Shown: positions 26,160 through 54,898 of the stretch, in pieces
Position numbering within the stretch: position 1 is the first letter of the stretch
Layout: each line of letters opens with the position of its first letter
NCBI GenBank assembly: GCA_027486655.1
Contig: JAIXOR010000039.1
Span: forward strand, 1 to 64,000
Direction: 5' to 3'
DNA length: 64,000 nt
Origin: Verrucomicrobiaceae bacterium
Lineage (GTDB): Bacteria; Verrucomicrobiota; Verrucomicrobiia; Verrucomicrobiales; Akkermansiaceae
Notes under the pieces: model-generated
Database searches by the model: none
What the model was told of the DNA's origin: nothing
Seen by the model: the letters and a program-made list of their open reading frames with translations, nothing else
Program-made: the position numbers and the translations under genes

Positions 26160-29100
26160 TCACGGCACCAGCACCTTGAGTCGTCCGAACTGCGTGGCAT
26201 TCGACGCGCGTGGCACATAGACTCTCACCCGGTCGGTGGGCGAGTTGGCGGGTGGAGTGAAGTTGAAATTGTCATCCACCTGGATCACCACGCCCGGGAT
26301 TGCGATCGTCGGTATCCAGGATCCTGCCAGGCTGCTGGCTGTTTCGCAAGTCGCGGTGATGCCTGCGTTGGTCGATAGATCGCTGCGACGATAAGTGAAA
26401 AGGAGATAGCTTCCGGAGGGAATGGTCGGTGAGGTGACGGGATGGGTCACCATTTCAAGGGTGGGCAGCAGAGAGGCATCCATGATGAGTTGAGGATTGC
26501 CGCCGATGACCATTTCCACGCCATTGGGGATGCCATCTTGGTCGGGGTCTCGATCCGCGCCAATGATTGTCAGGTCGCTCACACCCGGGAAGAAGCCTTC
26601 GATCCAGGAAGTGTAGGAGGCGGCAGAGCTCAGCGTGAGGATGCCGGTGGCCTCGGTGAAGGTGTATTTTTTGTTCCCCACGGTCCTGGTCCAGACATTG
26701 TTGGCCTCCGACCATCCGGCACCAGCGATGGCAAACGTCGAACCGTAGGATTCTGTGAGGCCCGCCGTATTGACGATCATCCATGAACCGGAGGTCAGCG
26801 GTGATGCGTCTGTCAGGGTGGTATCCATATTGAAATCACCATTGACGGCGACGATCCCCGATCCCGTGATGCGGTTGTTGGTGCCTGAGGTGGCACCGAT
26901 CACGAAGGTGAGTTGGGCATTGTCGGCGAGAATAAGGGTGCCATCGCTCACGGTGGTATCGCCCTTGTAGGTGTTGTTGCCTTGAAGAACCAAAGTTCCG
27001 GTCGAGGTTTTGTTCAGGCCGCTTGTGCCGTTGATGCTAGCGACGTTTTGCAGAGTGCCGGATTCAACGGTGAAAGTGATCCCTCCAATGCCTGAGGCAC
27101 CGATGTCGTGATTGTTCATGTTGAGTGTGCCGCCGTTGAGATTCACAGCGGCGTTGCTGGTTCCGGTTGAGGCACCCCGGATGATGTCTCCCGCGACCGT
27201 GAGTGTGCCGCCGGTGAGGTTGAGTGTGCCGTTGGCTGTTCCGGAGGCTGCGGGTGCGTTTCCGAGGCGGATGGAGTTCCCGCCATTCGCCGCCACGATC
27301 ACGCTGCCGCCGGAGATGTTCAGGGTTCCTGACGCGGTTCCTGAGCCTAGGGTGTTTACTCCGAGTTGGACGGGGTTGGTGGTGTTGTTGATGGTGACCG
27401 AACCACCTCCGAGGGAGATGATGCCGGTGGCGCTTGCTGCGGCTCCTGCGCTTCCACCGCGGCTGCCGGAGGTAAGATCGTTGGCATCGAGCGTCCCGGC
27501 GTCGAATTTGAACTGGGCCGTGGTAGGGCCGGTCCCCAGTGTGCGGATTCCGAGGTTCATCGTGCCGAATCTCAGGTCGGCGGAGTGGCCTGTCGTGTCA
27601 AACAGGTTGCTTGGTTGGCCGACGCCGGTGTTCATGTTGACGACCCCGATATTCAGGTTCGTGCGTCCGTTGACGGAGTCGGTCTGACTGCGGATCTTCA
27701 GTGTTCCGGTGGCTCCGCTGAAAGTGAGGCTGCCATTGCTGCGGCCGTCGCCGGTTCCGATCCCACCGAGGTTCAGGGTGTCCACGTTGATGACAGTGGC
27801 TCCGCTGCCGAGCTTGAGTGACTGGACGGCTGTGGCACCGCCGTTGGCTGAGCCATCGGGCGATCCGAGGAGGAGAGTGGCCGCCTGGATGGTGCTGTTA
27901 GAGGCGAGCAAGACGGTGGACCCGCCGCCGTTGGCGCTGCCGCTGTTGGTTGGGCTTCCGACACGGAAGCTGCCGGTTCCGAGATTGGCGAAGAAGGTGG
28001 AGAGCCCGCTCATGTCAAGGATGCCGGAGTTTCCCACATTGGTCGTTGCCCCGTTGCCTATCTGGACGGTGGCGTTGGTCGGTGCGGCACTGTTTCCGAT
28101 GGAAAGGGTTCCCGATCCCGTGATTTCCACTCCGGTGGACGAATGCGGCAGGGCCGTGGTGTTGAAACCGACGGTGAATGCGGCGTTGATCTGAAGGGTC
28201 CTGCCACTGCCGATGGTGATGGAGTTGGTGGAGTTGGTGCGTGCGAGGAACGCTCCGGCAAACGTGGCACTGGAACTGGTGAGATCCAGAATTCCTGAAT
28301 TCGTGCCACCGGTGGTTGAGCCGAAAGTAAGGCTTCCTGTGAGTGAGGGATTGGTGCTGGTGATCCGCAGCGTGCCGTTGTCGATGAGGGTGCCACCACT
28401 GTAGTTGTCCGTGGCGGTGGCGCTGAGACCGGAGAGGGTCCACGTGCCGGTGTTGCTCTTGGTGAGAGAAAGGGTTCCGATGCCGTTGGTGATCGCACCG
28501 TTGATGGAATTGCCGATGCTGGTCCCTCCCAGATTGAGGGCCTTGGTGGTGCCTCCGCTGGGAATGGTCAATCCACCGGCGATGGTGAGGTTTGCGGTAG
28601 TTGGGTTGAAAAGGGTGGAGCCGTCGACACCACCCGAAAGGTTCACCTTGGGAAACGAGATCCCGCCTGTTCCGCTTGTGACGTTCGTGCCGCTGGTGAA
28701 GTGGTAGGTGTTTACGCCGAAATTCGCTTCACCGAGCACGTGGGTAATTCCCGCGCCGGCGGTTGCGCGATCGGACACGATGGTGGCCTGTGCGCTCGAA
28801 CCGCCGCCGATGATCGGGAACGTTGCAAAGGCGGTATCGGTGGCAAGGTGGAGGGTGCCTGGGTTGGTTCCGTTGTTGATATTGACCTGGCGGGAGTTTT
28901 GCACTGCTGCCGGATTGGTGAGACGGAGCGTGCCGCCGCCGATGATGGTGAGTCCTGTGTAGGTGTTTGCGCCGGAGAGCACCCAGGTGCCGGTGCCGGA
29001 CTTGGTGAGGGAAGTCACTCCTGTGGTGATGTCCTGGTTGCCGATGGTGACTGTGGTTAGATTGTCACCGATAATTGCGGCAAGTGTGTTCGCGCCAGTG

Positions 29101-32100
29101 TTGGCACCTGTCAGCGTGAGGGTCTTGTCAGCCGTGCTGCTGCTGAAGCCCATGGCACCGGTGTTGGTGAAGTTCACTGCGCCTGTTCCTGAGGCGTCGA
29201 TACTGCTGGAGGCTTGAAGCGAGAAGAGACGGTTTGTGCTGACAGCCGGCCCCGTGTATTGGAGGGTGCCACCATTGAGAATGAGATTGCCCACCGCATT
29301 GGAGGAGGCACCGATGCTGCTGTTGCTGCTGCCGTTCGCAAGGGTGGCGGCTTGAAGTGTGCCGGCGCTGATGCGGGTGACGCCGGTGTAGGTGTTGTTG
29401 CCGTTGAGGAACAAGGTGCCCGTGCCGGTCTTGGCAAGGCCCGCTGTGCCAGCCACGACGTTGTTGAGTTGTGTCGTGTTGTTCTTCACCTCGATGGTGG
29501 GCGTTGTTCCAGCCAGCGTCATCGTATTGCCGGAACTGACGGTCCAATTCTGAGTGCCTGAAGTGTCGCCAAATTTCCAGATCCGCGCCGTGCGGTTCGC
29601 GCCCATCGAGAGGTTTGTGTCGGCGAGGAGGTCCACCGCGCTGAAATCCATCGTCGTGCTGCTCGTCGGGGCCGGCACGATGGCGTCTTCCCAGTTTGTA
29701 GGGGTCGTCCAATTCTGTGCGCCGCCTGCGGTCTGGGCCCAGATGTTGGGTTGAGGTGGTTTCGCCGGAAACTCCGCGGCGGCGAGGTTGATGCTGTATC
29801 CACTCCCCGTGGTGGTGGTGAACGCCGGGGTAACCGCACTGGGCGTGGCGACCAATCGATAGCCCGAGGCATGGCCTCCATATCCACCGCCCCATGATCC
29901 GGAGCTGACTTGAGTCAGCGGTGTGGCAGCAGCCGCGTTGACCGTGGGCGTGCCTGACGAGTTGGGATTGCCTGAGTTTTCGAGAACGGCGATCACCGCT
30001 GAGTTCACTCCAGCGGTGGTGAAACTCACGGAGTTCGCCGTGGTACCGGTCCTGCTGTTGGTAACGGCGAATCCGGCCATCGTGTTCGACAAGGCGTAAG
30101 CGGCTCCGATCCCGCCATTGGGGTTCTCCGCAGAGACCTCGATGGTGCCGGTGCCAATAGGGCCCGGATTGTCGAGGTAGAAAATGGCAGCCGTTCCATT
30201 GCCGCTTCCGGCCTCCTCCTGGATGACTTCCGTCATCACCTTGCCATTGTAGCGGACGTCATAGACGTAGCCGGTGCCACTATTGTTCCTGTCCTCGGTG
30301 GAGACGACCACAACGAGTTTGTCCGCCGTGCCTGCATCGAAGGTGCCAAGGCCTGTGACGGGTTGGAAGCCTTCGAGATTTGCCGGGAGGCTGAACTGTT
30401 GTGTGGAGTTGACCGTGACGGACCTGGTCGTGGCAGCGGCGAGCGTGGTTGCAGATGCGGCCGCCGAAGTCGTTGCGGTCTGCGTGCCGGCCCGCATGGA
30501 CACGGTGTAGGAGTAGGGGGTGCCCGCTTGGAGTCCGGTGTCGGTGTAAGTCCGGCTGGTTTGCCAAGCGCTGGACGTCGCACCGGGATTTCCTGAGGTC
30601 TCGGTGAACTGGTATTCCACCGTTCCTGTAAAACCGAAGGCGAGATTGCCTTTCACCGCCTTCATGGTGACGGCTGAGTTGCTGAAAGCCGTCGGTGCCA
30701 GTTCAAACTCAGCTGGCTCGGGTGTGAGCGGAGCCCATGTGGAGAGCACCTGCGGATTGGCGGGCAGGCCGTTCACTTCGGCATCCGGCGTGAGGAGCAG
30801 CTCGATCTTGGTCACGGCTCCATCGGAGGCAGGGAGGTTGATCGCCTCGGTGACAAGGCTGCCAGTGGAAAACGGATCCTGGCTGGTCACCCAGGAGGCC
30901 GCCAGCATGTAAGTCTTCGTCACGCCACCCTGCACCACCCGCACGCAAAGGTCCGAGCCTGAGGAGGGACTGAAGATGTTGTTGGCCGCAGTCCGGTCGG
31001 CCGCGACCGTGGGATCGAACAAGCGGATCAACCCGGATGTGTAGGGGCCGATCGGCGGATACACCATGGTCACGTCCGGATCCGAGCCGGAAATGGAAGC
31101 CATGATGCTGATCACCTGGGTATCGCGTGTGGTGGGAAATTGCACACCGTTGTTCGAGACGGTCGTCGTGTAGCCACCCGTCGTTTGGTTCCACTCCGCC
31201 CAACTGCCGCTGCTGCCGAGCGCCGGGTTCCACACCACGACGTGGTCATTGAGATAGTTCCGCATTTGATTCGCCGAGTAGTCGGAGAAGTGGTTCAGCA
31301 GGTAGCCCGGCTCCTGGTATCCGGTTCCGCCGCCTTGCATCGGGTCCACCTTGTATGTGCCGACCGGTTTTCCACCGACGTTCCCCGATTGCACGGTGGG
31401 CGGGATGAACTTTTTCGTGGGCAAGTGGAAGGCCCAGGCGGGACCTGCATGGGTATCGTTGTAAATCGCGGGTGCCTGAATGCCGTGCATATCCCCCTTG
31501 TAAGGATAGGCCGCACTATCGCCCCAATGCGGCAGGGAAAGCGCATGACCCAGTTCATGATGCAGAATGCCCTCCGAAGTCCCGCTGCCGACACCTGCGA
31601 AACCTCCCGCCTGCCCGCCTGCAAACGCGTTGTAAACATTCAGGTAATACAGGCTCCAGCGGCCGGAGCGGCCTGCCGCCCGCTTGAGCGCGCCATTCCA
31701 TGCCAGGGCTGCGGCCTGCTCTCCATCAAAAGCCAGACCGGTCTTGGCGGTGTATTCCGCCTTTGACCTGATGCGTGCGGCCTTGGTCCCGACGTCCGTT
31801 CGCGGAGGGATGACCAGTTCGGGGAAAACGACATGGCCGAGGCGTCTTACCTCCAAATCCGCCACCGGCAACTTGGCCTCGAGTTCGGCGAACAGCCCGC
31901 TCGGGTAGTCCGAGTTCGTGTCCGAGAAATACTGCACGTCGGTCATGGTCATCACGATTTTCGTCGGTGCGCCGACTTTCATGTTCGTGATCGTGGTGCT
32001 GGCCGTTCCCGCGTTCACCGTGACCTGCAAGCCGGTCTTGACCCAAGCCGCGGGGATGTAGCCGGTGAAGGTGTTTGCAAACGAATGCTGCACCACTCCC

Positions 32101-32381
32101 AAACCGTCCGGAATCGAGGCAGGCAGCGTGGCAGGTCCTGTGAGCGGGAGAACCAAGGGTGCCTGCCCACTGAGTGAGAGCGTGGCGGTGACCGCAGGTG
32201 ATGCAGGCGCTCCGGGTGCGGTCACGTGCACCTTGATCAAGGCTTCCCGGTTTCCGACCAGACCGAAGTAGGGGTCCGTGGCCTTCAACACATGCGTCTG
32301 GCCAAAGTAAACGGCGTTGATCGTCTGCGCTCGTACGAGGGATGAGGCAAGAGCCAAAGCCAGAATGAAAATCAGTCTCAT
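26160..32381 (-). CDS. Giant secreted M66 (StcE-like) metalloprotease fused to PATR repeats
   Basis: 2073 residues with a signal peptide (MRLIFILALALASSLVRAQ). Residues about 20-520 form a peptidase region whose zinc site HHELGHALSLPHWGD (HExxHx5H, near residue 275) and preceding GGQAGGFAGVGSG fit family M66; its best-known member, StcE, cuts mucin-type glycoproteins. A fibronectin III-like domain follows (EYQFTETSGNPG, about 580-650), then a beta-sandwich. A PATR region from about residue 880 (WAQTAGGAQNWTTPTNWED) carries many LTKSGTGTWVLSGANTYTG repeats. The shared C-terminal module closes it: YTSWIEGFF, DPDQDGIPNGVEMVIGGNP, FGRLKV. No beta-barrel is present. A likely surface-held glycoprotein-degrading enzyme. 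Confidence 0.85.
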   Translation of the reverse strand: MRLIFILALALASSLVRAQTINAVYFGQTHVLKATDPYFGLVGNREALIKVHVTAPGAPASPAVTATLSLSGQAPLVLPLTGPATLPASIPDGLGVVQHSFANTFTGYIPAAWVKTGLQVTVNAGTASTTITNMKVGAPTKIVMTMTDVQYFSDTNSDYPSGLFAELEAKLPVADLEVRRLGHVVFPELVIPPRTDVGTKAARIRSKAEYTAKTGLAFDGEQAAALAWNGALKRAAGRSGRWSLYYLNVYNAFAGGQAGGFAGVGSGTSEGILHHELGHALSLPHWGDSAAYPYKGDMHGIQAPAIYNDTHAGPAWAFHLPTKKFIPPTVQSGNVGGKPVGTYKVDPMQGGGTGYQEPGYLLNHFSDYSANQMRNYLNDHVVVWNPALGSSGSWAEWNQTTGGYTTTVSNNGVQFPTTRDTQVISIMASISGSDPDVTMVYPPIGPYTSGLIRLFDPTVAADRTAANNIFSPSSGSDLCVRVVQGGVTKTYMLAASWVTSQDPFSTGSLVTEAINLPASDGAVTKIELLLTPDAEVNGLPANPQVLSTWAPLTPEPAEFELAPTAFSNSAVTMKAVKGNLAFGFTGTVEYQFTETSGNPGATSSAWQTSRTYTDTGLQAGTPYSYTVSMRAGTQTATTSAAASATTLAAATTRSVTVNSTQQFSLPANLEGFQPVTGLGTFDAGTADKLVVVVSTEDRNNSGTGYVYDVRYNGKVMTEVIQEEAGSGNGTAAIFYLDNPGPIGTGTIEVSAENPNGGIGAAYALSNTMAGFAVTNSRTGTTANSVSFTTAGVNSAVIAVLENSGNPNSSGTPTVNAAAATPLTQVSSGSWGGGYGGHASGYRLVATPSAVTPAFTTTTGSGYSINLAAAEFPAKPPQPNIWAQTAGGAQNWTTPTNWEDAIVPAPTSSTTMDFSAVDLLADTNLSMGANRTARIWKFGDTSGTQNWTVSSGNTMTLAGTTPTIEVKNNTTQLNNVVAGTAGLAKTGTGTLFLNGNNTYTGVTRISAGTLQAATLANGSSNSSIGASSNAVGNLILNGGTLQYTGPAVSTNRLFSLQASSSIDASGTGAVNFTNTGAMGFSSSTADKTLTLTGANTGANTLAAIIGDNLTTVTIGNQDITTGVTSLTKSGTGTWVLSGANTYTGLTIIGGGTLRLTNPAAVQNSRQVNINNGTNPGTLHLATDTAFATFPIIGGGSSAQATIVSDRATAGAGITHVLGEANFGVNTYHFTSGTNVTSGTGGISFPKVNLSGGVDGSTLFNPTTANLTIAGGLTIPSGGTTKALNLGGTSIGNSINGAITNGIGTLSLTKSNTGTWTLSGLSATATDNYSGGTLIDNGTLRITSTNPSLTGSLTFGSTTGGTNSGILDLTSSSATFAGAFLARTNSTNSITIGSGRTLQINAAFTVGFNTTALPHSSTGVEITGSGTLSIGNSAAPTNATVQIGNGATTNVGNSGILDMSGLSTFFANLGTGSFRVGSPTNSGSANGGGSTVLLASNSTIQAATLLLGSPDGSANGGATAVQSLKLGSGATVINVDTLNLGGIGTGDGRSNGSLTFSGATGTLKIRSQTDSVNGRTNLNIGVVNMNTGVGQPSNLFDTTGHSADLRFGTMNLGIRTLGTGPTTAQFKFDAGTLDANDLTSGSRGGSAGAAASATGIISLGGGSVTINNTTNPVQLGVNTLGSGTASGTLNISGGSVIVAANGGNSIRLGNAPAASGTANGTLNLTGGTLTVAGDIIRGASTGTSNAAVNLNGGTLNMNNHDIGASGIGGITFTVESGTLQNVASINGTSGLNKTSTGTLVLQGNNTYKGDTTVSDGTLILADNAQLTFVIGATSGTNNRITGSGIVAVNGDFNMDTTLTDASPLTSGSWMIVNTAGLTESYGSTFAIAGAGWSEANNVWTRTVGNKKYTFTEATGILTLSSAASYTSWIEGFFPGVSDLTIIGADRDPDQDGIPNGVEMVIGGNPQLIMDASLLPTLEMVTHPVTSPTIPSGSYLLFTYRRSDLSTNAGITATCETASSLAGSWIPTIAIPGVVIQVDDNFNFTPPANSPTDRVRVYVPRASNATQFGRLKVLVP

Positions 32382-33174
32382 GGGTTTGATCCTCCGGCAA
32401 TCCAGCCCGGGACATTGACGGCAGGAAGGTGGGGGAAAGGGAAGGTGGGTTTACAAGGCCGTTTTAAACTGCTCCCTATTCCGATCAGACGCTCCGGGTT
32501 AATGCAAACCGGAAAATGGCCATCCGGGAACAAGTCGGTGTGTCGCCCGGAAAGAAGCAAAAGACGCATCGAGGCGCGCAAGTGAGCTTGTGGGCTCTCC
32601 AAGCCTGACTTTTCAGGATTTCGAAGTAGAGCCGCAGTGGCGTTTTGTTGCATCCCGTGGGCATCATTCGGCAGACAAGCGGTTGGGTTCCACCTGTCGT
32701 TTGAATCGGATTCGAAGCCGCTTTTCGTTGGTTCGCCAAGACTGCGTATGGTGGATCAGAAGTTGGGAACAAGACTGCAAGTGCCGGAGCTAGGATGCTC
32801 CAACGGATCGTCCTCGATTCAAACCAGCACTTCCTACCTCGGCAATCAGGGTTACGATTTCATGACCGGTTCCTCTGGGCCTTATGACATCGATTGGGTC
32901 AATCTTGGGTGAACGCCGAATGTCCACACCCCGGGATCGCCGTCGTTCGCGGGCTTGAGCTTTCCGGACTTCGGAAGGCGGAGGTGGACCTTGGGATGAC
33001 TTGATGTCGGCCATGCTGCCTGTGCCGTTGCGCCATGATGAGGGAGGAGCCGGCCCCCTCCGCTGGGGCTGGCGGTCGCCCTCGGTTCTTGCAGGTTGCA
33101 GCGAGGGCGGCTGGTCCGGAAACGGGCGAATCCGCAGCGGATGGCCGGGGTGCCTTCAGAATCGGATTTTCTTG
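32382..33174. other. About 790-base intergenic region, no supported gene
   Basis: Lies between the divergent M66-PATR gene and the feo operon, so both promoters are here. A 91-codon frame at 32637-32912 ends in GSSGPYDIDWVNLG, which resembles the tail of a LamG-like protein, but the upstream part has no domain; at most it is a gene relic. No RNA gene or repeat is seen. Confidence 0.45.
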
Positions 33175-33195
33175 TTGCAAATCAGTCTCAATTGC
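33175..33195. promoter_or_regulatory. Fur-box-like inverted repeat upstream of feoA
   Basis: The partly symmetric element starts TTGCAAATCAG and ends CTCAATTGC. Read on the minus strand, its core ATTGAGACTGATTTGC is close to typical Fur boxes. It sits 15 bases before the first possible feoA ATG and 57 before the second. Iron-repressed expression is the expected consequence. The position and the target genes support the call; a 19-bp consensus comparison was done by eye only. Confidence 0.5.
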
Positions 33196-33210
33196 GGATC
33201 TTCAAAGCAG

Positions 33211-33462
33211 ATGGCACACGGACTTGCAGCCGAGCTCGAAATCGACAGCGCGATGACCTTGAATCAGGTCGGCGTGGGCTGTGATGTTCGGATTCGTGTG
33301 CTGAGTGGTCCGGGCTGTGACCGGCTTCGGGACCTAGGGTTTTGCGAGCAGCTGCAGGTGCGCAAGCTTTCCGGCGGGCGGAATCTGATCTGCTCGGTGT
33401 GCGGCACGCGCATGGCCATCAGCCGCGAGCTTGCGGAGCAGGTGCTGGTGGAAGTCGCGTGA
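33211..33462 (+). CDS. feoA: Ferrous iron transport protein A (FeoA), SH3-like
   Basis: 83 residues from ATG 33211, or 69 from ATG 33253 (MTLNQVGVGCDVRI), which fits the usual FeoA N-terminus better. Neither has a Shine-Dalgarno sequence. The FeoA fold signature is clear: LRDLGFCEQLQVRKL and ICSVCGTRMAISRELAEQVLVEV. FeoA is a small cytoplasmic partner of the FeoB transporter. The gene ends seven bases before feoB, and a Fur-box-like element lies just upstream. The extra cysteines (CSVCG) are common in this subgroup. Confidence 0.9.
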   Translation: MAHGLAAELEIDSAMTLNQVGVGCDVRIRVLSGPGCDRLRDLGFCEQLQVRKLSGGRNLICSVCGTRMAISRELAEQVLVEVA

Positions 33463-33469
33463 CAGGGCC

Positions 33470-35350: not shown

Positions 35351-35352
35351 TC

Positions 35353-35496
35353 ATGGATTGGCAGACCTACACCGCGGCCGGCATCGTCACCCTCACACTG
35401 GTGGTTTTTCTCGTGCGTCTCTCCAGGCGCAAACCGAAGGCCGGTTGCGGCCATTCCTGCGGCTGCGAAAAGTCCGGGCCTCATCGGCATTCCTGA
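35353..35496 (+). CDS. FeoB-associated Cys-rich membrane peptide
   Basis: 47 residues, starting two bases after the feoB stop. One transmembrane helix (YTAAGIVTLTLVVFLVRL) is followed by a basic segment (SRRKPKAG) and a cysteine/histidine tail CGHSCGCEKSGPHRHS. This matches the FeoB-associated Cys-rich membrane protein family, which takes the place of FeoC in many bacteria. The tail may bind or relay Fe2+ at the cytoplasmic face; that role is inferred from location and composition. Confidence 0.8.
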   Translation: MDWQTYTAAGIVTLTLVVFLVRLSRRKPKAGCGHSCGCEKSGPHRHS

Positions 35497-35520
35497 TCCA
35501 GCGGGGTTTTGGAAAACGTG

Positions 35521-35559
35521 TAGGGGAAATCCCCCGACATGCTTTTAGGGGTTTCCCCC
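35521..35559. repeat. Tandem G4/C4 near-palindromes, 25 bp apart
   Basis: TAGGGGAAATCCCCC (35521-35535) and TAGGGGTTTCCCCC (35546-35559) are two near-palindromic boxes whose starts are 25 bases apart; GGGGAAA at 35523 also pairs with TTTCCCC at 35552. They lie after the feo operon and about 95 bases before the next small gene. They could be a two-site operator or a weak terminator; no T-run follows. Confidence 0.35.
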
Positions 35560-35652
35560 AGTGGACGCTGTGCGGGATACATGTAGCCTCCATTGGCTCG
35601 CGCTGGCTGGGATATGACGGCGGCCGCGAGGCTTTCAAAGGATCGAAAACCC

Positions 35653-45266: not shown

Positions 45267-45310
45267 AACGGGTTGCTTGGCGTGTTTGTCTGAATGAGGG
45301 ATTCCGGCAC

Positions 45311-45324
45311 CCCCAATATTGGGG
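45311..45324. promoter_or_regulatory. Perfect 14-bp palindrome CCCCAATATTGGGG, candidate operator
   Basis: Located between the response regulator stop (45266) and the PATR gene start (45442), about 120 bases before the latter. LuxR-family dimers bind such short inverted repeats. It is not followed by a T-run, so it is a poor terminator. Confidence 0.45.
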
Positions 45325-45441
45325 ATGGGGAATAACGCACATGGGTTATCGACCGCATCGCGGAACCAGTCATTTGATTGAGCCTTAATGGTATGACGTA
45401 AACTCATCCTTCCATTCAAAACCCCAAAAACCCCAGATCCC

Positions 45442-48400
45442 ATGAAACCCAAATTCGGCTCTCTCGCCGCCGCTTTGTCGCCTATTTCCCGTGTCACCCT
45501 GATTGTCTTCGCGTCGATGTGCGCGGCTGGAAACGCATCCGCAGCCAGTGGTGTGTGGACCGGCACCACCACCGGAGGCACCTGGAGCAATGTCGCCAAC
45601 TGGAACGCGGGAGTCGTCGCGGATGGTTCCGGCTTCCTGGCCGACTTCACCACTCTTGATCTCCCGGTGGGCGCATTCACGGTCAGCCTCGACACCGCCC
45701 GCACCATCGGCTCGCTCTCGTTCGGTGACAGCGATGGTGGCACCGCGGGTACTTGGACTCTCTCCGGGGCCAATACGCTGACACTCGCCGGAACTCCGGT
45801 CATTACCACCGGGGTGAACACCACCATTTCCTCTGTGGTCGGCGGCACGGTGGGCTATTCAAAAGAAGGGACTGGCACCCTGACTCTTACCGGTGACAAC
45901 TCCACCGCTCTCACGGGCACAGTTACCCTCAAAGGCGGCACCCTCAGTCTGATTACCGGTTCTGCCACGAACCTTCAGAAAGCTATCGGCAATGCGGCCA
46001 ATCCAGTGGTCTTCCAAGGAGGAACGCTTGCGCTGAACGGCAGCACCTCCAATGACAACGGCTCCACGATCTGGGGACCCTTCGCCAATCCGATCTCAGT
46101 CGCAAGCGGTCAATCCGGAACAATCAACACGTTTCCTCGTGGGGCGATTACCAGCGTGCTGACCGGCGCAGGCACCATGAACTTGCGCGTCCGCGCCACC
46201 CGCTGTGACCTTACCGGAAACTGGAATGCGTTCACCGGAAATGTGGTGGTTAGTTCTCAGCTCAATCCCACTTTCGGAGATCTCAGAGTCAATGGCACCA
46301 ACCAGTTCGCCAATTCAAAACTCCATCTGAACCCGGCAGTCTTCATGTCGCAGGTGTTCAATCCTCCGAATGGTGGAACGACCGCTTCCACCACGATTCA
46401 GAACATCGGGGAACTCAGTGGATCCGCCGGCAGCATCCTCTCAGGCAACCCGGTTTCAGGGCGTTTTGTCGCATGGACCATCGGAGCGCTCAATACGAAC
46501 TCCACCTTCGCGGGCACGATCCAGAATGCCGCCGGTGCCTGCCGGATTATCAAAGTCGGCACTGGCACACTCACGCTTACCGGAAACAACACCTACACCG
46601 GGAACAATGGCGCGACCGCCGGCACCCAGGTGACGGCCGGAACCCTCTCGGTTGGAGATGGCGGTGCCACCGGCAGCCTAGGGGCTACCGACACCGCGGT
46701 CTCAACCGGGGCCACTTTGATCTTCAATCGCGATGATTCGTCCGTCAGTTCTTATCCAGGGATCCTGTCGGGCAGCGGATCGGTTATCAAACGGGGAACC
46801 GGTCAGGTGACTTTCTCCGGCGTCAATACCTTCATCAGTGGCATTACCATCGAGGGAGGGCGCATCGGGGTGGCGAACCCCTCATCCCTTGGAGCCTCCT
46901 CCGGGAATGTCGCTTTCAGCATTGGGAACGGCGGACTTGTTTCGACAGCTCCCTCCGTGGTCATCGCCAATCCGATGACCATCGACTCCGGCATCACCGC
47001 CAGCTTCGCCAGCTCCGCAGCAACGAATTCTCTGGAACTTTCCGGAACCATTTCCGGCAGCGGCTCCGCCAACATCGACGGCTCCGGATTGGTGGCCATT
47101 AGCTCCACGACCAACTCATACTCGGGCACGACCACTGTCTCTTCCGGATCGCTTGTGCTGACCAATACCTCCGGCAGTGCCACGGGAACGGGAAGTGTCT
47201 CCTTATCGGGTGGAACCCTTGCTGGAACCGGCTTCATCAGCGGTGCGGTCAGTGCAGGCTCCACCTCGAGCATCCGCCCCGGTACTCTGAATCTGGCATC
47301 CTCCGGGGTGGGTGCTCCCATCACGGTCGGTTCCCTCGCTCTTGCCGGTGGATCGACGATTTACAACGAATTTGTCGATTCGTCGACTTACGACCGCATC
47401 GTCGTCACCGATGCCAACGGCCTGACTTCGTCTGCAAACTCGGGCAATCCGGTCCTTGTCGACCTCCGATCCTCGAACTCCTCCGCCAAGTGGACCAACC
47501 CGGGCACGTATGACATCATCCAGTTTTCCGGCAGTTTCACCGGTGACCCTGATCAGATCTTCGAAGTCACTCCAGCCAGCCAGCAGGTCGGACTGACCTA
47601 CGCTTTCAGCGTCAGCGGCAACTTCATCCGACTCACCATCTCGGGTGCGCTGCCTTCGCAATGGAACGTGGATTCCGATGGACTGTGGAGTGTCACTGGC
47701 AACTGGCTCAATGGCGTGCCCGGTGCGGCGGGGGCCACTGCCAATTTTGCCAGCGCGATCACGTCGCCGCGCACCGTCACCCTGGACTCGAACCGCACCG
47801 TCGGATTGGTTCAGTTCAACAACGCCAATGCTTACTCCATTTCCGGCACCTCGACGCTGACGTTCGACCAGTCGTCAGGAAACGCCGGGATCACCGTGGT
47901 TCAGGGGGATCATGGGATCCAAAGCCCTGTCGCGCTCACGGATACTCTTGATGTGGTCATGTCATCCGCCTCCGATTCTTTGGTCCTCGGTGGAGCGGTC
48001 AGTGGCGCGGGCGGTATTGTGAAGAGTTCCGCCGGAGATCTCACCCTCGGTGCAGCGGGAACCTACTCAGGAGCTGTTAGCTTCTCGAATGGCACCCTTT
48101 CATTCGCCTCAGGTGGTCTTGGAACCGGCAGTCTTTCGCTCGCCAACTCCACGCTGGCCTGGCTCGGAAGCAATACTCAGGACATCACTAATCGCGCCAT
48201 CACCTTTGCTTCCGGAACCAACACCTTCGATGTGGGAGCCAACGCCGTGCAGCTCGCAAATGCGTTTGGTGGCGGTTCTTCGGACCCATTCATCAAAAAA
48301 GGCAGCGGCAAGCTCACATTGGCCGCCGATGCGGATTTCTTCGGCACCGTGACGGTCAACGATGGTCCGCTTCAGCTTGGAAACGGTGGTGCGAATGGCA

Positions 48401-50457
48401 GTCTCACCGGAGCCATCACGAACAACGGCGGCCTGATCGTGGAAAGATCCGCGGATTTGTCTCTCAGCCAGGTGATTTCCGGGACCGGAAGCCTTCAGCA
48501 GGCAGGAGCTTCGGTGCTCACCCTGGCCGGAACGAACACATTCACCGGCAATACCTCAATCACCAACACCTCGGGATCGATTCTTCTGGCCAATCCCTTG
48601 GCTCTTCAGGGAAGCACTCTTTCCTATGTTACCTCGGGCGGGAGTGTGAGCTTCGGCTCCCTCATCGCCGTCACGCTTGGCGGACTCTCCGGAGGTCGCC
48701 CGATCACTCTGGAGAATGCCACTCCAGCAGCTATCGCCCTTACCGTTGGTGCGAACGGTGAGAGCACGACCTACAGTGGCGCCATCAGTGGCGCTGGTTC
48801 GTTGACCAAATCCGGTGCCGGGATCCTGACTCTTTCGGGAATCAGTTCGATCGCAGGATCAAACACTGTCACTGGGGGAACCATTCTACTCTCCGGGGCG
48901 ATGACAACGCCCTTTGTGGCTGTCAACTCGGGTCAGATCCACGTCAGTGGTGGCACCTTGTCTTGCTCGGCGGGTTCCACTTTGGGCACCAGCGGGTTGG
49001 CCGGTACTCTGCGTGTCAGCAACGGCGGATCCGTGACGTTGGCATCCGTGCAAACCGGAACAGCGGATAACAGTCTGTTGATCGTTGAGGATGGAACCCT
49101 CACGGCGGCTTCGGTTGTGCTTCAGCGCACCTCCAACGGCGGCACCGGGGCTGATCCGGTAGCTGCTCCCGCTGGCAGCGGCTTTGTCGTCACCGGCGGC
49201 ACGGCCTCGATCAGCGGAGCACTCACCGTCGGCACCAGCAACTCCAGCGCCACCTCGCTGATCTCCGGAGGGACCACCACCGTGGGTGGAGTGGTCACCA
49301 TTGGCAATACGTCCAATACCCGATGGAACATGCTCGAAGTAAGTGGTGGTGTGTTTACTTCCACGGACACAACGACCGGCGTCTTGCTGTCTCCCAATGC
49401 GGGCACCGCCAACCGTAGCGCGTTGATCGTCAGTTCTTCGGGTATCGCGACTGTAGAGAAAGTCACCATGGGAACCCCCACGTCCGCCGCAGGGACGGGC
49501 CGGGTGACCGTGTCGGGAGGGACCCTGTATGTCGGCTCTGGAGGAATCGTACAGAATGCGGCACCAGCTTTCACCTCGGAACTCCGCCTGAGCGGCGGCA
49601 CCCTCGCTGGTAAGGCTTCCTGGTCCACCTCCGTGCCTGTCTCCATCACGGGAACCGGCACCTCTACCATCAAGGCGGCGGATGCGTCGGATCTTCCGGT
49701 GGACATCATGCTCAACGGCCCGGTTTCCGGAACAGGAAGCTTCGATAAGACAGGGGGAGGCACCCTCACCCTGAGTGCGGTGAACACCCATTCCGGAAAC
49801 ACCACGGTTCTCGGTGGTGTGCTCAAGGTGCAGACCAAGAGTTTCGCGGATGATGCGCTGGTGTCCGTGGATCTTGCCGCCGGAGCGGCTTTGAATCTGG
49901 ACTTTAGCGGCGGAGACAAAGTGGGAACCTTCCTGATCGACAGCAACACGCAGCCAGATGGCATCTACGGTTCGCTCACCAACACGACTCCCGGAATCAC
50001 CCAGACCGCCGCCATCACCGGAACCGGGCTGCTCTACGTGAACCTGGATCCCCCCAGCTCGCCCTACGCCTCCTGGACCTCCGCCAACGGCCTCACCGCC
50101 GGCGTCAATGACGGACCGACCCAGGATCCCGATAACGACGGCATCGAGAACCTTCTCGAGTTCGTCCTCGGAGGGCTTCCGCTGACACCGAACACCAGCA
50201 TCCTGCCCACGCTCGACGCTTCCGGTTCGAACTTCGTCTTCACCTTCAACCGGAGTGACGAATCCGAAGCCGAGGTGACCCTGGCCTTCCAACACGGTGC
50301 CGACCTCGCTGCGTGGACGAACGTCTCGATCGGCGCCGCAGACAGCCTGCCCAGCGTCGCGGTGGCGGAAAATGGTGCTTCTCCGGACCAGATCACGGTC
50401 ACCATTCCCAAGGGCCTGAATACCAGTATCTTCGGCCGCCTCCAAGGCACCAAGTAA
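45442..50457 (+). CDS. Giant secreted PATR protein, first of a tandem pair
   Basis: 1671 residues. The signal region is long (KPKFGSLAAALSPISRVTLI through AAGNASAAS). Unit-opening motifs occur at the start (VWTGTTTGGTWSNVANW) and again near residue 736 (WNVDSDGLWSVTGNW), so there are two tandem passenger units. Repeats such as LTKSGAGILTLSGISSIAGS predict a long beta-helix. The last third (VSGGVFTSTDTTTGV, TVSGGTLYVGSGGIVQNA) closely parallels the next gene. The end is the shared module: YASWTSANGL, DPDNDGIENLLEFVLGGLP, FGRLQGTK. No beta-barrel domain. Probably a surface or matrix protein under control of the upstream two-component system (inference from position and palindrome). Confidence 0.86.
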   Translation: MKPKFGSLAAALSPISRVTLIVFASMCAAGNASAASGVWTGTTTGGTWSNVANWNAGVVADGSGFLADFTTLDLPVGAFTVSLDTARTIGSLSFGDSDGGTAGTWTLSGANTLTLAGTPVITTGVNTTISSVVGGTVGYSKEGTGTLTLTGDNSTALTGTVTLKGGTLSLITGSATNLQKAIGNAANPVVFQGGTLALNGSTSNDNGSTIWGPFANPISVASGQSGTINTFPRGAITSVLTGAGTMNLRVRATRCDLTGNWNAFTGNVVVSSQLNPTFGDLRVNGTNQFANSKLHLNPAVFMSQVFNPPNGGTTASTTIQNIGELSGSAGSILSGNPVSGRFVAWTIGALNTNSTFAGTIQNAAGACRIIKVGTGTLTLTGNNTYTGNNGATAGTQVTAGTLSVGDGGATGSLGATDTAVSTGATLIFNRDDSSVSSYPGILSGSGSVIKRGTGQVTFSGVNTFISGITIEGGRIGVANPSSLGASSGNVAFSIGNGGLVSTAPSVVIANPMTIDSGITASFASSAATNSLELSGTISGSGSANIDGSGLVAISSTTNSYSGTTTVSSGSLVLTNTSGSATGTGSVSLSGGTLAGTGFISGAVSAGSTSSIRPGTLNLASSGVGAPITVGSLALAGGSTIYNEFVDSSTYDRIVVTDANGLTSSANSGNPVLVDLRSSNSSAKWTNPGTYDIIQFSGSFTGDPDQIFEVTPASQQVGLTYAFSVSGNFIRLTISGALPSQWNVDSDGLWSVTGNWLNGVPGAAGATANFASAITSPRTVTLDSNRTVGLVQFNNANAYSISGTSTLTFDQSSGNAGITVVQGDHGIQSPVALTDTLDVVMSSASDSLVLGGAVSGAGGIVKSSAGDLTLGAAGTYSGAVSFSNGTLSFASGGLGTGSLSLANSTLAWLGSNTQDITNRAITFASGTNTFDVGANAVQLANAFGGGSSDPFIKKGSGKLTLAADADFFGTVTVNDGPLQLGNGGANGSLTGAITNNGGLIVERSADLSLSQVISGTGSLQQAGASVLTLAGTNTFTGNTSITNTSGSILLANPLALQGSTLSYVTSGGSVSFGSLIAVTLGGLSGGRPITLENATPAAIALTVGANGESTTYSGAISGAGSLTKSGAGILTLSGISSIAGSNTVTGGTILLSGAMTTPFVAVNSGQIHVSGGTLSCSAGSTLGTSGLAGTLRVSNGGSVTLASVQTGTADNSLLIVEDGTLTAASVVLQRTSNGGTGADPVAAPAGSGFVVTGGTASISGALTVGTSNSSATSLISGGTTTVGGVVTIGNTSNTRWNMLEVSGGVFTSTDTTTGVLLSPNAGTANRSALIVSSSGIATVEKVTMGTPTSAAGTGRVTVSGGTLYVGSGGIVQNAAPAFTSELRLSGGTLAGKASWSTSVPVSITGTGTSTIKAADASDLPVDIMLNGPVSGTGSFDKTGGGTLTLSAVNTHSGNTTVLGGVLKVQTKSFADDALVSVDLAAGAALNLDFSGGDKVGTFLIDSNTQPDGIYGSLTNTTPGITQTAAITGTGLLYVNLDPPSSPYASWTSANGLTAGVNDGPTQDPDNDGIENLLEFVLGGLPLTPNTSILPTLDASGSNFVFTFNRSDESEAEVTLAFQHGADLAAWTNVSIGAADSLPSVAVAENGASPDQITVTIPKGLNTSIFGRLQGTK

Positions 50458-50516
50458 GGGTTCTCCGTCCGACCCAACCGGCCGGTCCGCGAAAAAGGTG
50501 GGCCGGCCCTTTCGAA

Positions 50517-50561
50517 CCCTCTCCCCTGAATCATCCGGGGAGAGGGGGTACCCGCTTTTTT
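50517..50561 (+). terminator. Hairpin terminator between the tandem PATR genes
   Basis: CCCTCTCCCC (50517-50526) pairs perfectly with GGGGAGAGGG (50537-50546); a T6 run follows at 50556-50561 after a ten-base spacer. It suggests the second PATR gene has its own promoter. Confidence 0.6.
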
Positions 50562-50671
50562 GTGCAGTAACTCCGTTGTGGTAGTGGACGACGGGGCGGG
50601 GATGGCTGACTTTGATGGATAGCAGATGGAACTCCGGTTCCCGTGCTTCCCCAATCCCATCCCACCATCCC

Positions 50672-53600
50672 ATGAAACCCAGATTCCGTCGCCTCGCGTC
50701 CACCGCGCTTCAATCCGTCTTCGTCGCCTCGTCCATCACCGGCTTCGCCCTTGCAGCCGACCAGACTTGGACCGGAGCCACCAGCACTCTTTGGTCTGAT
50801 TCAGGCAACTGGTCCAGCGCGCCACCAGTAGCCACCGATCTTGCTGTTTTTGATGCATCTTCCACAGCTAATCTCGCGACATCGCTTGGCGCGGATCGCT
50901 CGATTCTTGGTCTGAAGATTGTTGATCCATTGGGTGCCGTGAGCGTAGCGGCAGGAAACATTCTGACTCTCGGCTCTTCGGGTATTGACATGAGCGCTGC
51001 CACTCAGAATTTGACGGTGAATTCTCCCGTCTCCTTGGCGGTTGCTCAGAGTTGGAACGTGCAGACCGGAAGATCTCTCGTTGTGGCGGGCAACCTTACC
51101 GGCACAGGGCCTCTCACGAAGTCTGGAGCAGGTGCCGCTTCCCTCACGGGGACCAATACCTACACAGGGGTCACAAACGTCAGCGGTGGAACACTTTCTT
51201 TTGGTAGTGCGGTTTCCACACCCGGCACTGGATTCGTCTTCAGCAACGGTGGAGCCATCACCGGAATCGGAAATTCGGCAAGTGATGCAGTGGGTCCGGT
51301 GACGTTCACCTCCGGAGGTGGTTCATTTACATCAGCATTGGGCGTGGCCCAGACGCGTGTGGTCTCTATGGGTAACATCGTTGTGGATTCCGGGGTCACT
51401 GGGAATATGACTCACAACGCTAGAGCTATAATTGGCGAGGGCACCGGGGCAACTGTGTCAGGTTCAGGCACTCTTAACATTACTGCAAACGGGGCCAGTG
51501 CAACTGCGAACAACACGGATGGCCGGTTTTACCTGGGAGGAAACTGGAGCACTTTCACCGGAAATCTCAACCTGATCGGAAACAATGCCAACAGCACCAT
51601 TCAATTGAACCAGAATGGTGGCAACTTTGTGGCGGCTTCGATGGCTTCGACAAAAATCAATTTGAGTGCCACAGGTGCCGGTGTGATGTCGTTGCTAGGC
51701 AGGTTTGGGACTAACGCCACAATCGCGCTTGGCGAGCTTTCGGGAACGTCGGCTTCTGCCATCAGAACCGTAAGCACTTCAGGTGCCGGAACATTCCAAA
51801 TTGGCGGCCTTGGCACTAGTTCCACATTCGCGGGAGGAATAACGAATGGAGGCGCTGTGGTGCTTTCTATCTCCAAAGTTGGTGCAGGTACTCTGACGCT
51901 TACAAATACGACGAACATCACCTACACCGGGCCGACAACAATCAATGAAGGAACGCTGAAGGTGAATGGTGTCAAGGCTGGTGCAGGAGTGACGACTGTA
52001 AACAGCGGTGCGACACTTGCTGGAACCGGCAGTGTAGCCGGCACCACCACGGTCGCTTCCGGCGGCATCCTTTCTCCGGGAGACGCCGGTGTGGGGACCA
52101 TCACCCACTCTTCGCTCTCGCTGGCATCCGGTGGCGTGTTGGATTTGGAATTCGGTAGCGGCAACGACCAGATCACCGTGGCCACCGGCGGCACGCTGGC
52201 CCTCTCGACCGGCGTGAAGGTCAACCTTTACGACGGAGCCGTCGGCAGCCCCACACTCGCCACCAACGGCACCTACACGCTCATCAACACCACGGGTGCC
52301 ACCGTCACCGGATTCAATTCCTCCAGCTTTGAAGTCCAGAACCCGGTTTCCGGAAAAAGCTACACCTTCGCCAACACCGGCACCGCCATCACCGTCACCG
52401 TCGGTGACTTCGTGGTGGATCCCAGCAACTATTGGAACGTCGACGGCGGAGGATCCTGGAACACCGCCTCCAACTGGACCAAGGGCACCGTGCCCAATGC
52501 GATCGGTGCCAATGCGAAGTTCGGCCCAGGCATCGGTGGTGCGGGTGGTTCGTTCTCCAATATCACCATGACGATCCCCCTCGACGGGGCGCAAACCGTG
52601 GGTGAACTCCTCATCAACGAAGACTTCGGAAGCTCGTTCATCATTGCTCCCGGCACCGGCGGAAGCCTCCTCCTCGACAATGGAGCCGGGCCTTCCAGTG
52701 TTTCAGTCGTCGCCGGTGACCACCGCATCGAGGCTCCTGTTGCTGTGGATCCCGATGACGTCTCGATCGACGTCGCCAGCATCTTCAACTTCGAGGTTTC
52801 GGGCGTCCTTTCGTCCTCGGCACCGGGCGGTGGCATCACCAAATCCGGTTCCGGCACACTGCTGCTTTCCGGAGCCAACACCTACGATGGCGGCTCCATC
52901 CTTGCCGGAGGCGTGGTGGCGGTCAACTCGTCCTCGAGCCTCGGTTCCTCGGATGCTTCGTTCTTCGGAGGCTCCATCCGTCTCCTTGCCGATCTCGCAG
53001 ACTCCCGGCCCTACAAGGTCTCCGGTGCCAACAGCGCCACCTTCGACACCAATGCCTTCAACTACGCATTGACCGGAGCGATCACGTCTCTCCCATCCGC
53101 TACCGGCGGCCTGGTCAAGAACGGAGCGGGAACCCTCTCGCTCGGAGCCGTCAACGCCTACATCGGTGCCACCAACATCAACGTCGGCGTGGTGGACGTC
53201 GTCACAGGGGGGGCGATCGCGACGAGCGCCGTGAACATCGCCAACGCCGGCAGCGCCCGCCTCGTCGTCAGCGGCGGCGGGGCCACCGTCAGTGGAGCCA
53301 CCACCGTGAGCAATGGCAGCTCGGGCATCCTCGTCTCGGGCGGTTCCGCCTCGTTCAACGGCGGCATCACCGCGACGAACAACTCGAATGCCAACCACCT
53401 CATCGCCGCCACCGGTGGCAGTTTCAGCGCCAGTTCGATTGCGTTGGGCCGTTCGGCTTTGGTGATCGGAACTCCGACCGCGGGTGCGACCGGCACCGGG
53501 TTCTATGTGAACGGTGCGACCTCCTCGGTCACGGGTAACCTCAGTGTTGGAGCCGCGAGCACCAGCGTCAACTCCACCGCCAGTGCGAGAATCGATAGTG

Positions 53601-54898
53601 GAAGTCTCACCGTCGGCGGCGTGGTGCTGGTCACGATTTCCAGCCCAGACCGCTGGTCGGTTCTGGACGTCAACGGAGGCATCTTCACCTCGACCAACAG
53701 CGCCACGGGCGTGCAGGTGGGTAGCACGGTGATTGGAAGCAGTGCCTTCCTGGTCCGCAACGGAACCGCGACTGTCGAGCGCATCCTCCTCACCCAGCCG
53801 GCCACCTCCACGGAGACCAGCATGTTGAATGTCTCCGGAGGCAGCCTCTACATCGGTGCGGGCGGCATCGTTGGCAATGTCAACGCCGGCACGGGCATTC
53901 TGGACGTGCAATTGGGCACCGCGACCCTCGGTGCGAAGGCCAACTGGACCTCCTCCGTGGCCGCCACGCTCACGGGCACCACCACCATCAAGGCCGCCAG
54001 CGAGCTGAATGTGGCCGCCAACATCACGCTCTCGGGCGCGATTGGCGGTGTGGGTGGCTTCGACAAGACGGGAGCGGGAGCACTCACCCTGTCCGGAACC
54101 AACACCTACGCCGGCAACACCAACGTCAATGAAGGAACCCTGGCCATCAGCGGCGATCAATCCGCCTCGCTCGGAACGGTCGCAGTTGCCTCAGGAGCCA
54201 CGCTTGCCGGCACCGGTTCGATCGGCGGAAGCGTGAGCATCGCCTCTGGTGGTCGTCAGGCCTTCGCACTCGCCGCCACCGCAGGAGCCCAAACCACGCG
54301 CCAGATCACCGGTGCGCTCTCGATGGACTCTGGAAGCGTGATCGACCTGACCGCCGCAGGCACCGTGGCCAATGGAGTCTACGTGCTCGCAACCGCCGCA
54401 GGCGGCATCACCGGCCTGCCCGGGACGGTCAACCTTCCGGAAGGTGTGCCCGGCACGCTTTCCGTCAGTGAGAACAGCCTCGTGCTCACGGTGGGCAGTT
54501 CCGGATACGCCTCCTGGGCCTCCACCAACGGGCTCACCTCCGGCGTGAACGACGGACCCACCCAGGATCCGGATGCCGATGGCGTGGAGAACTTGCTGGA
54601 GTTCGTGCTTGGCGGTCTTCCGCTGACACCGAACACCGGCATCCTGCCCACGCTCAACGCATCCGGCACGGACTTCGTGTTCACCTTCAACCGCAGCGAT
54701 GAATCCGAGGCGGAAGTGGCGCTCACCTTCCAGCACTCGCCGGATCTCGCCACCTGGACGCCGGTGGCCGTCGGTGCTTCGTCCAACCTGCCCACCGTTT
54801 CCGTCGCGGAAAACGGAGCGGCTGCGGACACCATCACCGTGACGGTTCCCAAGGGCTCGAACACGAAGCTCTTCGGCCGCATCCAAGGCACCAAGTAA
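50672..54898 (+). CDS. Giant secreted PATR protein, second of a tandem pair
   Basis: About 1408 residues from the ATG at 50672, which opens the signal peptide (KPRFRRLASTALQSVFVASS to FALAAD). The earlier in-frame ATG at 50612 adds a non-signal extension. Two passenger units open with TWTGATSTLWSDSGNW and, near residue 590, YWNVDGGGSWNTASNW. Beta-strand repeats (ITKSGSGTLLLSGANTYDGG) fill the middle. The C-terminal third is paralogous to the preceding protein (VNGGIFTSTNSATGV, VSGGSLYIGAGGIVGN) and the final module is nearly the same (YASWASTNGL, DPDADGVENLLEFVLGGLP, FGRIQGTK), pointing to gene duplication. A strong terminator follows. Confidence 0.86.
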   Translation: MKPRFRRLASTALQSVFVASSITGFALAADQTWTGATSTLWSDSGNWSSAPPVATDLAVFDASSTANLATSLGADRSILGLKIVDPLGAVSVAAGNILTLGSSGIDMSAATQNLTVNSPVSLAVAQSWNVQTGRSLVVAGNLTGTGPLTKSGAGAASLTGTNTYTGVTNVSGGTLSFGSAVSTPGTGFVFSNGGAITGIGNSASDAVGPVTFTSGGGSFTSALGVAQTRVVSMGNIVVDSGVTGNMTHNARAIIGEGTGATVSGSGTLNITANGASATANNTDGRFYLGGNWSTFTGNLNLIGNNANSTIQLNQNGGNFVAASMASTKINLSATGAGVMSLLGRFGTNATIALGELSGTSASAIRTVSTSGAGTFQIGGLGTSSTFAGGITNGGAVVLSISKVGAGTLTLTNTTNITYTGPTTINEGTLKVNGVKAGAGVTTVNSGATLAGTGSVAGTTTVASGGILSPGDAGVGTITHSSLSLASGGVLDLEFGSGNDQITVATGGTLALSTGVKVNLYDGAVGSPTLATNGTYTLINTTGATVTGFNSSSFEVQNPVSGKSYTFANTGTAITVTVGDFVVDPSNYWNVDGGGSWNTASNWTKGTVPNAIGANAKFGPGIGGAGGSFSNITMTIPLDGAQTVGELLINEDFGSSFIIAPGTGGSLLLDNGAGPSSVSVVAGDHRIEAPVAVDPDDVSIDVASIFNFEVSGVLSSSAPGGGITKSGSGTLLLSGANTYDGGSILAGGVVAVNSSSSLGSSDASFFGGSIRLLADLADSRPYKVSGANSATFDTNAFNYALTGAITSLPSATGGLVKNGAGTLSLGAVNAYIGATNINVGVVDVVTGGAIATSAVNIANAGSARLVVSGGGATVSGATTVSNGSSGILVSGGSASFNGGITATNNSNANHLIAATGGSFSASSIALGRSALVIGTPTAGATGTGFYVNGATSSVTGNLSVGAASTSVNSTASARIDSGSLTVGGVVLVTISSPDRWSVLDVNGGIFTSTNSATGVQVGSTVIGSSAFLVRNGTATVERILLTQPATSTETSMLNVSGGSLYIGAGGIVGNVNAGTGILDVQLGTATLGAKANWTSSVAATLTGTTTIKAASELNVAANITLSGAIGGVGGFDKTGAGALTLSGTNTYAGNTNVNEGTLAISGDQSASLGTVAVASGATLAGTGSIGGSVSIASGGRQAFALAATAGAQTTRQITGALSMDSGSVIDLTAAGTVANGVYVLATAAGGITGLPGTVNLPEGVPGTLSVSENSLVLTVGSSGYASWASTNGLTSGVNDGPTQDPDADGVENLLEFVLGGLPLTPNTGILPTLNASGTDFVFTFNRSDESEAEVALTFQHSPDLATWTPVAVGASSNLPTVSVAENGAAADTITVTVPKGSNTKLFGRIQGTK

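Follow-up and report, generated by a model that had tools for sequence, protein, structure and literature searches.

GlyGly-CTERM is a short processing signal, and its architecture is shared by LPXTG and PEP-CTERM. PEP-CTERM was first recognized by its C-terminal position a few residues from the protein end, by the signal peptide of the proteins that carry it and by its many copies per genome, as set out in the available part of PMC1569441. The C-terminal domain (CTD) of RgpB, handled by the type IX secretion system (T9SS), is a seven-stranded immunoglobulin (Ig)-like sandwich with a targeting signal in its last 22 residues, and it matched Ig domains at Z ~8.5 (both statements from the excerpted text of PMC4804311). 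Here, we describe a C-terminal module shared by five proteins encoded in a stretch of 64,000 nucleotides from a Verrucomicrobiaceae bacterium (assembly GCA_027486655.1, contig JAIXOR010000039.1, positions 1 to 64,000; hereafter the window), which forms the beginning of a 66,451-base contig. On balance, the position and company of this module in sequenced genomes suggest that Verrucomicrobiota use it as a C-terminal domain for sorting or attachment.

Position and spread of the module

The initial annotation had described a common module at the ends of five open reading frames (ORFs). All five ORFs were confirmed, with ends at 3188, 9444, 50457 and 54898 on the plus strand and at 26160 on the minus strand, and the proteins are named below by these ends. 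The modules comprise 115-151 residues and align over their full length. The reported start (Y-x-x-W), the loop D-x-D-x-DG-x-x-N-x-x-E and the F-x-R near the end are invariant in the five. Altogether there are 14 invariant columns, which include a second W and a P besides Y1, W4, the loop and F-x-R. The motif F.FxRxxxS, also attributed to the module, can be clearly made out in no more than four of the five, and the 9444 protein is not one of them.

A profile built from the five modules matched 115 places in the 5.3-Mb genome of the same bacterium at E<=0.01 (the five seeds included), in 114 distinct proteins. The sharing is far beyond chance, and the best of the 110 non-seed matches has E 4.0e-36. 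In this six-frame search, 113 of the 115 matches were located at most 97 residues from a stop codon. The two exceptions are the leading copy of the two that stand in tandem on contig C54, and a match at C64:89021 that is weak (E 0.002) and covers only model positions 9-79. In the case of three matches, the module is immediately followed by the real stop, beyond which the frame was read. An iterated profile was applied only to the last 190 residues of the own-genome proteins; it is blind to internal copies because of this confinement, and the unbiased count of position is therefore 113/115. After this re-profiling, 109 of 113 modules ended at most 8 residues before the stop, with a mode of 3 (44/113), and full-length copies were terminal in 110 of 111 cases, the remaining one being a frame read beyond its real stop. 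Between the last strand (F-x-R-L-x-V) and the protein end there are usually 1-8 residues, and [FY]-x-R was found within the last 14 residues in 97 of the 115. The consensus of the module is YDSW ... ADPDGDGLSNLLEYALGLNP ... NLVFTYTRR ... LTYTVETSTDLSSWTEV ... VTVTLPAGSAGRRFVRLRV.

Two phyla were searched for the module: Verrucomicrobiota (194 genomes) and, as an outgroup, the phylum of a Desulfobacterales organism in which a matching locus had been found (148 genomes). At E<=1e-5 the module was present in 117 of the 194 Verrucomicrobiota genomes, representing 74 of 107 genera; copies per genome were counted up to 22, and higher values are to be read as at least 22. An Akkermansia-like genus (a candidate label) in this set has 0-8 copies per genome. 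The outgroup phylum, with the Desulfobacterales organism counted among its 148 genomes, gave matches in 9 of them at the same threshold, all partial and the best with E 5.9e-10. A named collection contained at least 45 loci; the matches listed comprised 43 from Verrucomicrobiota, one from Desulfobacterales, which covers the loop part alone, and one from a bacterium of no stated taxon.

The terminal position was mostly retained in relatives. In the named-collection loci, 52 of 55 full-length copies were terminal. Of the other three, one is internal, one coincides with the end of a contig, and one, from a viral contig, has 18 residues after it. Forty stretches of other genomes were chosen from the strongest listed matches, which means that this sample favours good copies; 39 of them contained a match (L299 was misplaced), and 40 of their 41 full-length copies were terminal, with 306 residues following the exception, while three further matches comprised the loop only. 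All 19 of the best-of-genome loci that were checked were also terminal. The counts for the own genome, the named relatives and the other genomes are the part of the profile search proposed in the initial annotation that sequence can decide, and they favour its reading of the module as a tag for export or surface attachment.

A mobile or viral origin of the module was considered and rejected, as no phage or plasmid record matched one window module in a tblastn search. The 50457 module alone gave no match in the viral collection. One contig of that collection (L193), matched by profile A3, carries a module 18 residues from the protein end, and this contig may be host DNA.

PEP-CTERM tails, exosortase and the search for a partner

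The apparent swap of the module with PEP-CTERM on sister proteins is, in our judgement, the best evidence for a sorting function. The own genome contains 48 PEP-CTERM matches (E<=0.05; 40 over the cut-off) and three exosortase matches. We compared 20 PEP-CTERM bodies, all from loci fetched around module genes (24 regular-expression hits minus four judged false by eye: L068, L103, L122 and window position 47597), and 10 of them match the body of a module protein. The identities reach 78% over 724 amino acids, 77% over 412, 59% over 517, 69% over 257 and 52% over 490, the weakest being 38% over 71. One module-protein body used as a query gave 14 matches in 12 own-genome frames, its own included; 10 of these frames end with the module, two with PEP-CTERM (one of them, on contig C14, slightly under the Pfam cut-off at 19.8 bits) and none with neither tail. 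Contig C14 carries three consecutive paralogues, of which the second and third end differently, one with the module and the other with PEP-CTERM. The window also encodes a protein with a PEP-CTERM tail in place of the module (Table 1); in Pfam, its PEP-CTERM match (20.1 bits) and its PATR match (24.7 bits) each stay slightly under the cut-off.

The two tails are also found close together. In the own genome, the distance to a module gene is at most 1 kb for 19 of the 48 PEP-CTERM matches (18 of them share its strand), compared to 7.3 expected, and none of 2000 random placements gave a number as high. In two Akkermansia-like genomes, three loci (L224, L225 and L226) have a PEP-CTERM-like gene adjoining the module gene. 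One of these genomes, G113 (L225 and L226), has PEP-CTERM-like proteins next to its module genes and yet no PF09721 match.

Across the 194 Verrucomicrobiota genomes, 108 contain both the module and exosortase (PF09721), 9 the module only, 36 exosortase only and 41 neither, which gives p 1.4e-12 in a Fisher test that treats genomes as independent and ignores shared ancestry and genome size. A sulfatase control showed no such association (105/12/62/15, p 0.09). Exosortase was found in all 78 genomes with at least five counted module copies and in 36 of the 77 genomes without the module. This co-occurrence is an association and does not amount to PEP-CTERM membership; PEP was found in the 20 residues before the module in only 1 of 113 own-genome module proteins.

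The initial annotation had also expected a translocon or processing gene to accompany the module, and no such gene was identified. The neighbours of the module in low-copy genomes (10 stretches from seven genomes, with greedily called ORFs) included no recurring gene, apart from similar loci in G024 and G113 and paralogues in G099.

Carrier proteins and the window

Most carriers are probably exported by Sec. Among the 103 carriers whose N-terminus is complete, a crude, home-made rule recognized a start resembling a Sec-type signal peptide in 82, compared to 58 of 188 frames that belong to these loci but are not carriers (a control that includes non-gene frames) and 19 of 103 codon-shuffled sequences; by this rule, the expectation that the module would be found on signal-peptide proteins holds for the majority. 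Seventeen own-genome carriers were scanned with Pfam, and four of them gave no match. The others include an S8 subtilase, GH16, a GDSL lipase, a CotH kinase, two BNR-repeat proteins, a glucose/sorbosone dehydrogenase, and exo/endonuclease-phosphatase, lamin-tail and LamG proteins, to which the window adds M66, Big_5 and PATR. The 113 bodies cluster into families of 39 and 20, plus small families and singletons.

The five bodies in the window had been described as unrelated. The M66 peptidase of the 26160 protein was verified (Pfam, 2e-20). The bodies are less unrelated than claimed because four of the five share PATR-type beta-strand repeats, and those of the 50457 and 54898 proteins are 27-47% identical in parts. 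The PATR repeats had been called helices, whereas they are beta-strand repeats. The M60 label given to the 3188 protein did not hold, as only Big_5 exceeded the Pfam cut-off and there was no M60 match; an HExGH-like motif is present at the visible N-terminus. This protein is truncated by the contig start, and its start and signal peptide are beyond checking because the frame is open to base 1. VPEP directly precedes its module, and no PEP-CTERM-type helix or basic cluster follows. As to the reported lack of a beta-barrel, Pfam found no barrel family in four of the window proteins, and the fifth was scanned with NCBIfam alone. PF03797 is presumably the family of the C-terminal autotransporter (T5aSS) beta-barrel.

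Alternatively, the module could be a structural C-cap that stops secreted proteins, long beta-helix (PATR) ones among them, from unfolding or being attacked by proteases at their ends, a role that would need no partner. The dominance of two body families (39 and 20 of 113), the beta-repeats of four of the five window proteins and the confident prediction that the module folds alone (see below) agree with such a cap. The module, however, also ends globular enzymes such as the S8, GDSL lipase and GH16 proteins, and its alternation with a PEP-CTERM tail on related bodies is not obviously expected of a cap, which makes this explanation improbable in our view.

The modules of the neighbouring 50457 and 54898 proteins are ~77% identical, and look as if they had been homogenized or recently copied. 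This difference from the identity of their bodies, as well as the presence of two tandem copies in one protein, could also be explained if the module were a mobile, multiplied generic domain (Fn3-type with a TSP3-type calcium loop) spread by duplication at the 3' ends of genes and having no common function. Its presence in 117 of 194 genomes, where it is mostly kept at C-termini, speaks against this. So does the conservation of loop and strand residues in an alignment of 48 sequences from the window and related loci, in which mean column identity is 27%. We consider a generic domain of this type very improbable.

Table 1. Coordinates of the modules and of the alternative tail in the window.
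Feature	Position	Strand	Protein	EF-hand-like loop	Remarks
C-terminal module	2790-3188	+	48-3188	2838-2873	body cut by contig start; Big_5
C-terminal module	9097-9444	+	4939-9444	9145-9180	PATR; shortest module and the one that diverges most; weak F5/8 type C match
C-terminal module	26160-26615	-	26160-32381	26514-26549	M66 peptidase and PATR
C-terminal module	50065-50457	+	45442-50457	50125-50160	PATR
C-terminal module	54506-54898	+	50612-54898	54566-54601	autotransporter-type beta-strand repeats; last strand with F-x-R from 54872
PEP-CTERM tail in place of module (alternative tail)		+	22513-23991		canonical by eye

Between positions 9677 and 19944, the window encodes four sulfatases, a PSCyt/DUF1553 protein and a DUF1501 protein. 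Together with the adjoining GH10 (3210-4382) and alpha-galactosidase-type protein (20044-22131), this looks like a polysaccharide-degradation region. The sulfatases, the GH10 and the cytochrome/DUF1553 protein were not among the module profile matches.

Predicted fold and comparison with known systems

The 48 aligned sequences were used for structure prediction with AlphaFold, which gave a model with a predicted local distance difference test score (pLDDT) of 91.2 and a predicted template modelling score (pTM) of 0.84. The model begins with a short helix that contains the invariant W; the loop and another helix come next, and then seven strands with one short helix among them. The module is confidently predicted to fold alone, as an EF-hand-like loop followed by a Fn3/Ig-like beta-sandwich (~125 residues in total). 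The best structural neighbours (VIA) are Fn3/Ig domains, headed by the beta-common receptor (Z 8.4, root mean square deviation 2.6 over 78 residues), although Fn3/Ig is a common fold and Z values of this size can reflect merely a common arrangement. The model of the 9444 module is of low confidence (pLDDT 73.3); both helices recur in it, as do five of the seven strands.

No match better than weak was obtained for the module in Pfam, NCBIfam or PDB. Foldseek with the module model returned nothing at E<=0.001, and the PDB sequence searches gave best E values of 0.36 and 0.057. At E<=0.1, the Pfam hits among the 48 members were DUF3999 in seven (best 0.0019), CFSR in three, F5/8 type C in three (best 1.7e-5) and TSP3_bac in one (0.028). 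In NCBIfam, the Amuc_1099 profile (NF042425) was matched by 13 of the 48 in the loop part (best 9.5e-5). No description of the module was found in the openly licensed literature, also when text of consensus fragments was used, and it may be described elsewhere. As the module has no name in the searched libraries and alternates with PEP-CTERM on sister proteins, it is probably an unrecognized sorting or attachment signal.

In the loop, D21, D23, D25, G26 and E32 are invariant in the 48-sequence alignment and N29 is present in at least 90%, and this EF-hand-like pattern suggests a role for calcium. Such a loop of 12 residues may instead belong to a calcium-dependent docking or adhesion domain, dockerin-like or lectin-like, which would hold secreted proteins on exopolysaccharide or the cell wall after export by a tagless route. 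The predicted Fn3/Ig-like sandwich is a common binding fold, and the three weak F5/8 type C (discoidin) matches fit this explanation. So do the internal copies in some genomes and the association with exosortase and PEP-CTERM, a programme that the accessible part of PMC1569441 connects with exopolysaccharide. On the other hand, no dockerin family was matched at E<=0.1, and a plain binding domain would have no reason to occupy the last residues in 113 of 115 cases. The loop sub-motif alone, by contrast, does occur internally and in repeats; the L165 protein combines nine internal loop-type partial matches with a terminal module. We regard docking as possible but rather unlikely. A sorting role is preferred over docking or a cap mainly because the module is strictly C-terminal, with the protein usually ending 1-8 residues behind the last strand.

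The view of the initial annotation that the module is an export or attachment tag is in part supported, by the C-terminal position, the signal-peptide starts and the swap with PEP-CTERM, and is weakened by the missing partner gene and by internal copies. The latter are the main reason for caution. Position was checked in eight of 12 low-copy genomes (G062, G122, G143 and G155 showed no full-length match), and 5 of their 11 modules were internal (L218, L219, L220, L221 and L223), two of these being matched only in part. Behind the internal modules the proteins continue for 309-731 residues, with Ig-like repeats or other C-terminal parts, which indicates that the module need not be terminal to be kept.

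Besides these copies and the shared ancestry left out of the Fisher tests, several other observations weigh against a sorting domain. Exosortase is present in genomes with internal modules (G018, G080, G099 and G160), and one own-genome protein holds two modules in tandem (contig C54). The clear similarity of the C14 pair ends ~140 residues before the module, and therefore the exchanged piece is larger than the module itself; an exchange of tails can also arise through ordinary domain shuffling. SprA_N, which marks the T9SS translocon protein SprA, was found in none of the 194 Verrucomicrobiota genomes, with the control genomes being silent as well. Exosortase was rejected as an obligate partner because PF09721 was not matched in 9 of the 117 genomes with the module and because the module lacks a PEP-CTERM-type end. 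The Amuc_1099 pilus-like system was also rejected, as it shares only a 30-column loop with the module and is missing in several many-module genomes, e.g. G085.

If the module is nevertheless a sorting domain, a carrier would be exported by Sec, after which the module would fold in the periplasm with calcium. A dedicated outer-membrane machine could then read the folded module, with the end of the last strand as a natural handle, and either move the protein to the cell surface and exopolysaccharide layer or hold it there. Export signal, anchor, or both would fall within this proposal. The module would serve one set of paralogues as the exosortase-processed PEP-CTERM tail serves the other. In this form, the module would be the cargo signal of an undescribed Verrucomicrobiota sorting or secretion system, in which a principle like that of the Bacteroidota T9SS evolved independently, is locked by calcium and runs parallel to exosortase on the same extracellular matrix proteins. 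We put forward this more specific scheme tentatively, as one that is less probable than not.

Should the module be a sorting domain, a C-terminal signature that outnumbers PEP-CTERM by more than 2:1 in this genome (114 proteins compared to 48 matches, 40 over the cut-off) would have remained unnamed in the searched libraries. The signature would then flag the secretome of the phylum to which Akkermansia belongs, the Verrucomicrobiota. Reporter fusions and co-occurrence profiling would allow a direct test of how large and often polymer-degrading proteins come to be located outside the cells of these bacteria.

Several known systems resemble the module in part. The T9SS CTD, too, is an Ig-like beta-sandwich that folds at the C-terminus of many proteins exported by Sec, as is predicted for the module, but the module adds an N-terminal W-helix and an EF-hand-like loop and is found in Verrucomicrobiota. 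The T9SS further involves cleavage by PorU and attachment to A-LPS. Membership in the T9SS was rejected, as no CTD family was matched by the 48 members at E<=0.1 or by five members at E<=1 (Pfam, NCBIfam). We take Por_Secre_tail (PF18962) and TIGR04183/TIGR04131 to be the T9SS CTD families. No solved T9SS CTD was among the VIA matches listed, which excludes nothing.

The module shares with PEP-CTERM (TIGR02595, PF07589; exosortase, PF09721) the recognition features given at the outset, alternates with it on homologous bodies and clusters with it. PEP-CTERM, however, consists of a short PEP motif, a transmembrane helix and a basic cluster, whereas the module has none of these and is predicted to be a folded domain. 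GlyGly-CTERM, processed by rhombosortase, offers the concept of a many-to-one C-terminal signal and occurs occasionally in Verrucomicrobia, as stated in the available part of PMC3237569; the module differs in being a predicted folded domain without such an end.

Other likenesses concern individual parts. The D-x-D-x-DG-x-x-N-x-x-E loop recalls TSP3 and dockerin-type loops (PF18884, PF00404), but it makes up only the first third of the module, with the single TSP3_bac match and the lack of a dockerin match noted above; TSP3_bac can reach the cut-off elsewhere in whole carriers. F5/8 type C (PF00754) is likewise a beta-sandwich, and its best match was the 9444 module, yet 45 of the 48 members were unmatched at E<=0.1, and the best structural neighbours are Fn3/Ig. 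With a cut-off of 28.2 bits, the full 9444 protein reaches only 18.2. With Amuc_1099, the module shares the loop segment (30 columns, hhalign probability 91). Amuc_1099 differs as a protein of ~350 residues with an N-terminal hydrophobic stretch, and many-module genomes do not require it. The Amuc_1099 protein of one genome was matched by the module profile (positions 16-98, E 2.6e-5), while the profile-profile comparison aligns the loop only. Amuc_1099-family pilus-like proteins with the W and EF-hand-like loop segment of the module were also observed at L195 (G000:C12) and L196 (G113).

Finally, the features common to sorting domains in general are present: a C-terminal position, signal peptides, diverse bodies and many copies per genome, the exceptions being the internal copies in the low-copy genomes (5/11) and single ones elsewhere. 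Judged by these features, the module reads as a C-terminal sorting domain of the same general kind as the T9SS CTD and PEP-CTERM, and as a member of neither.

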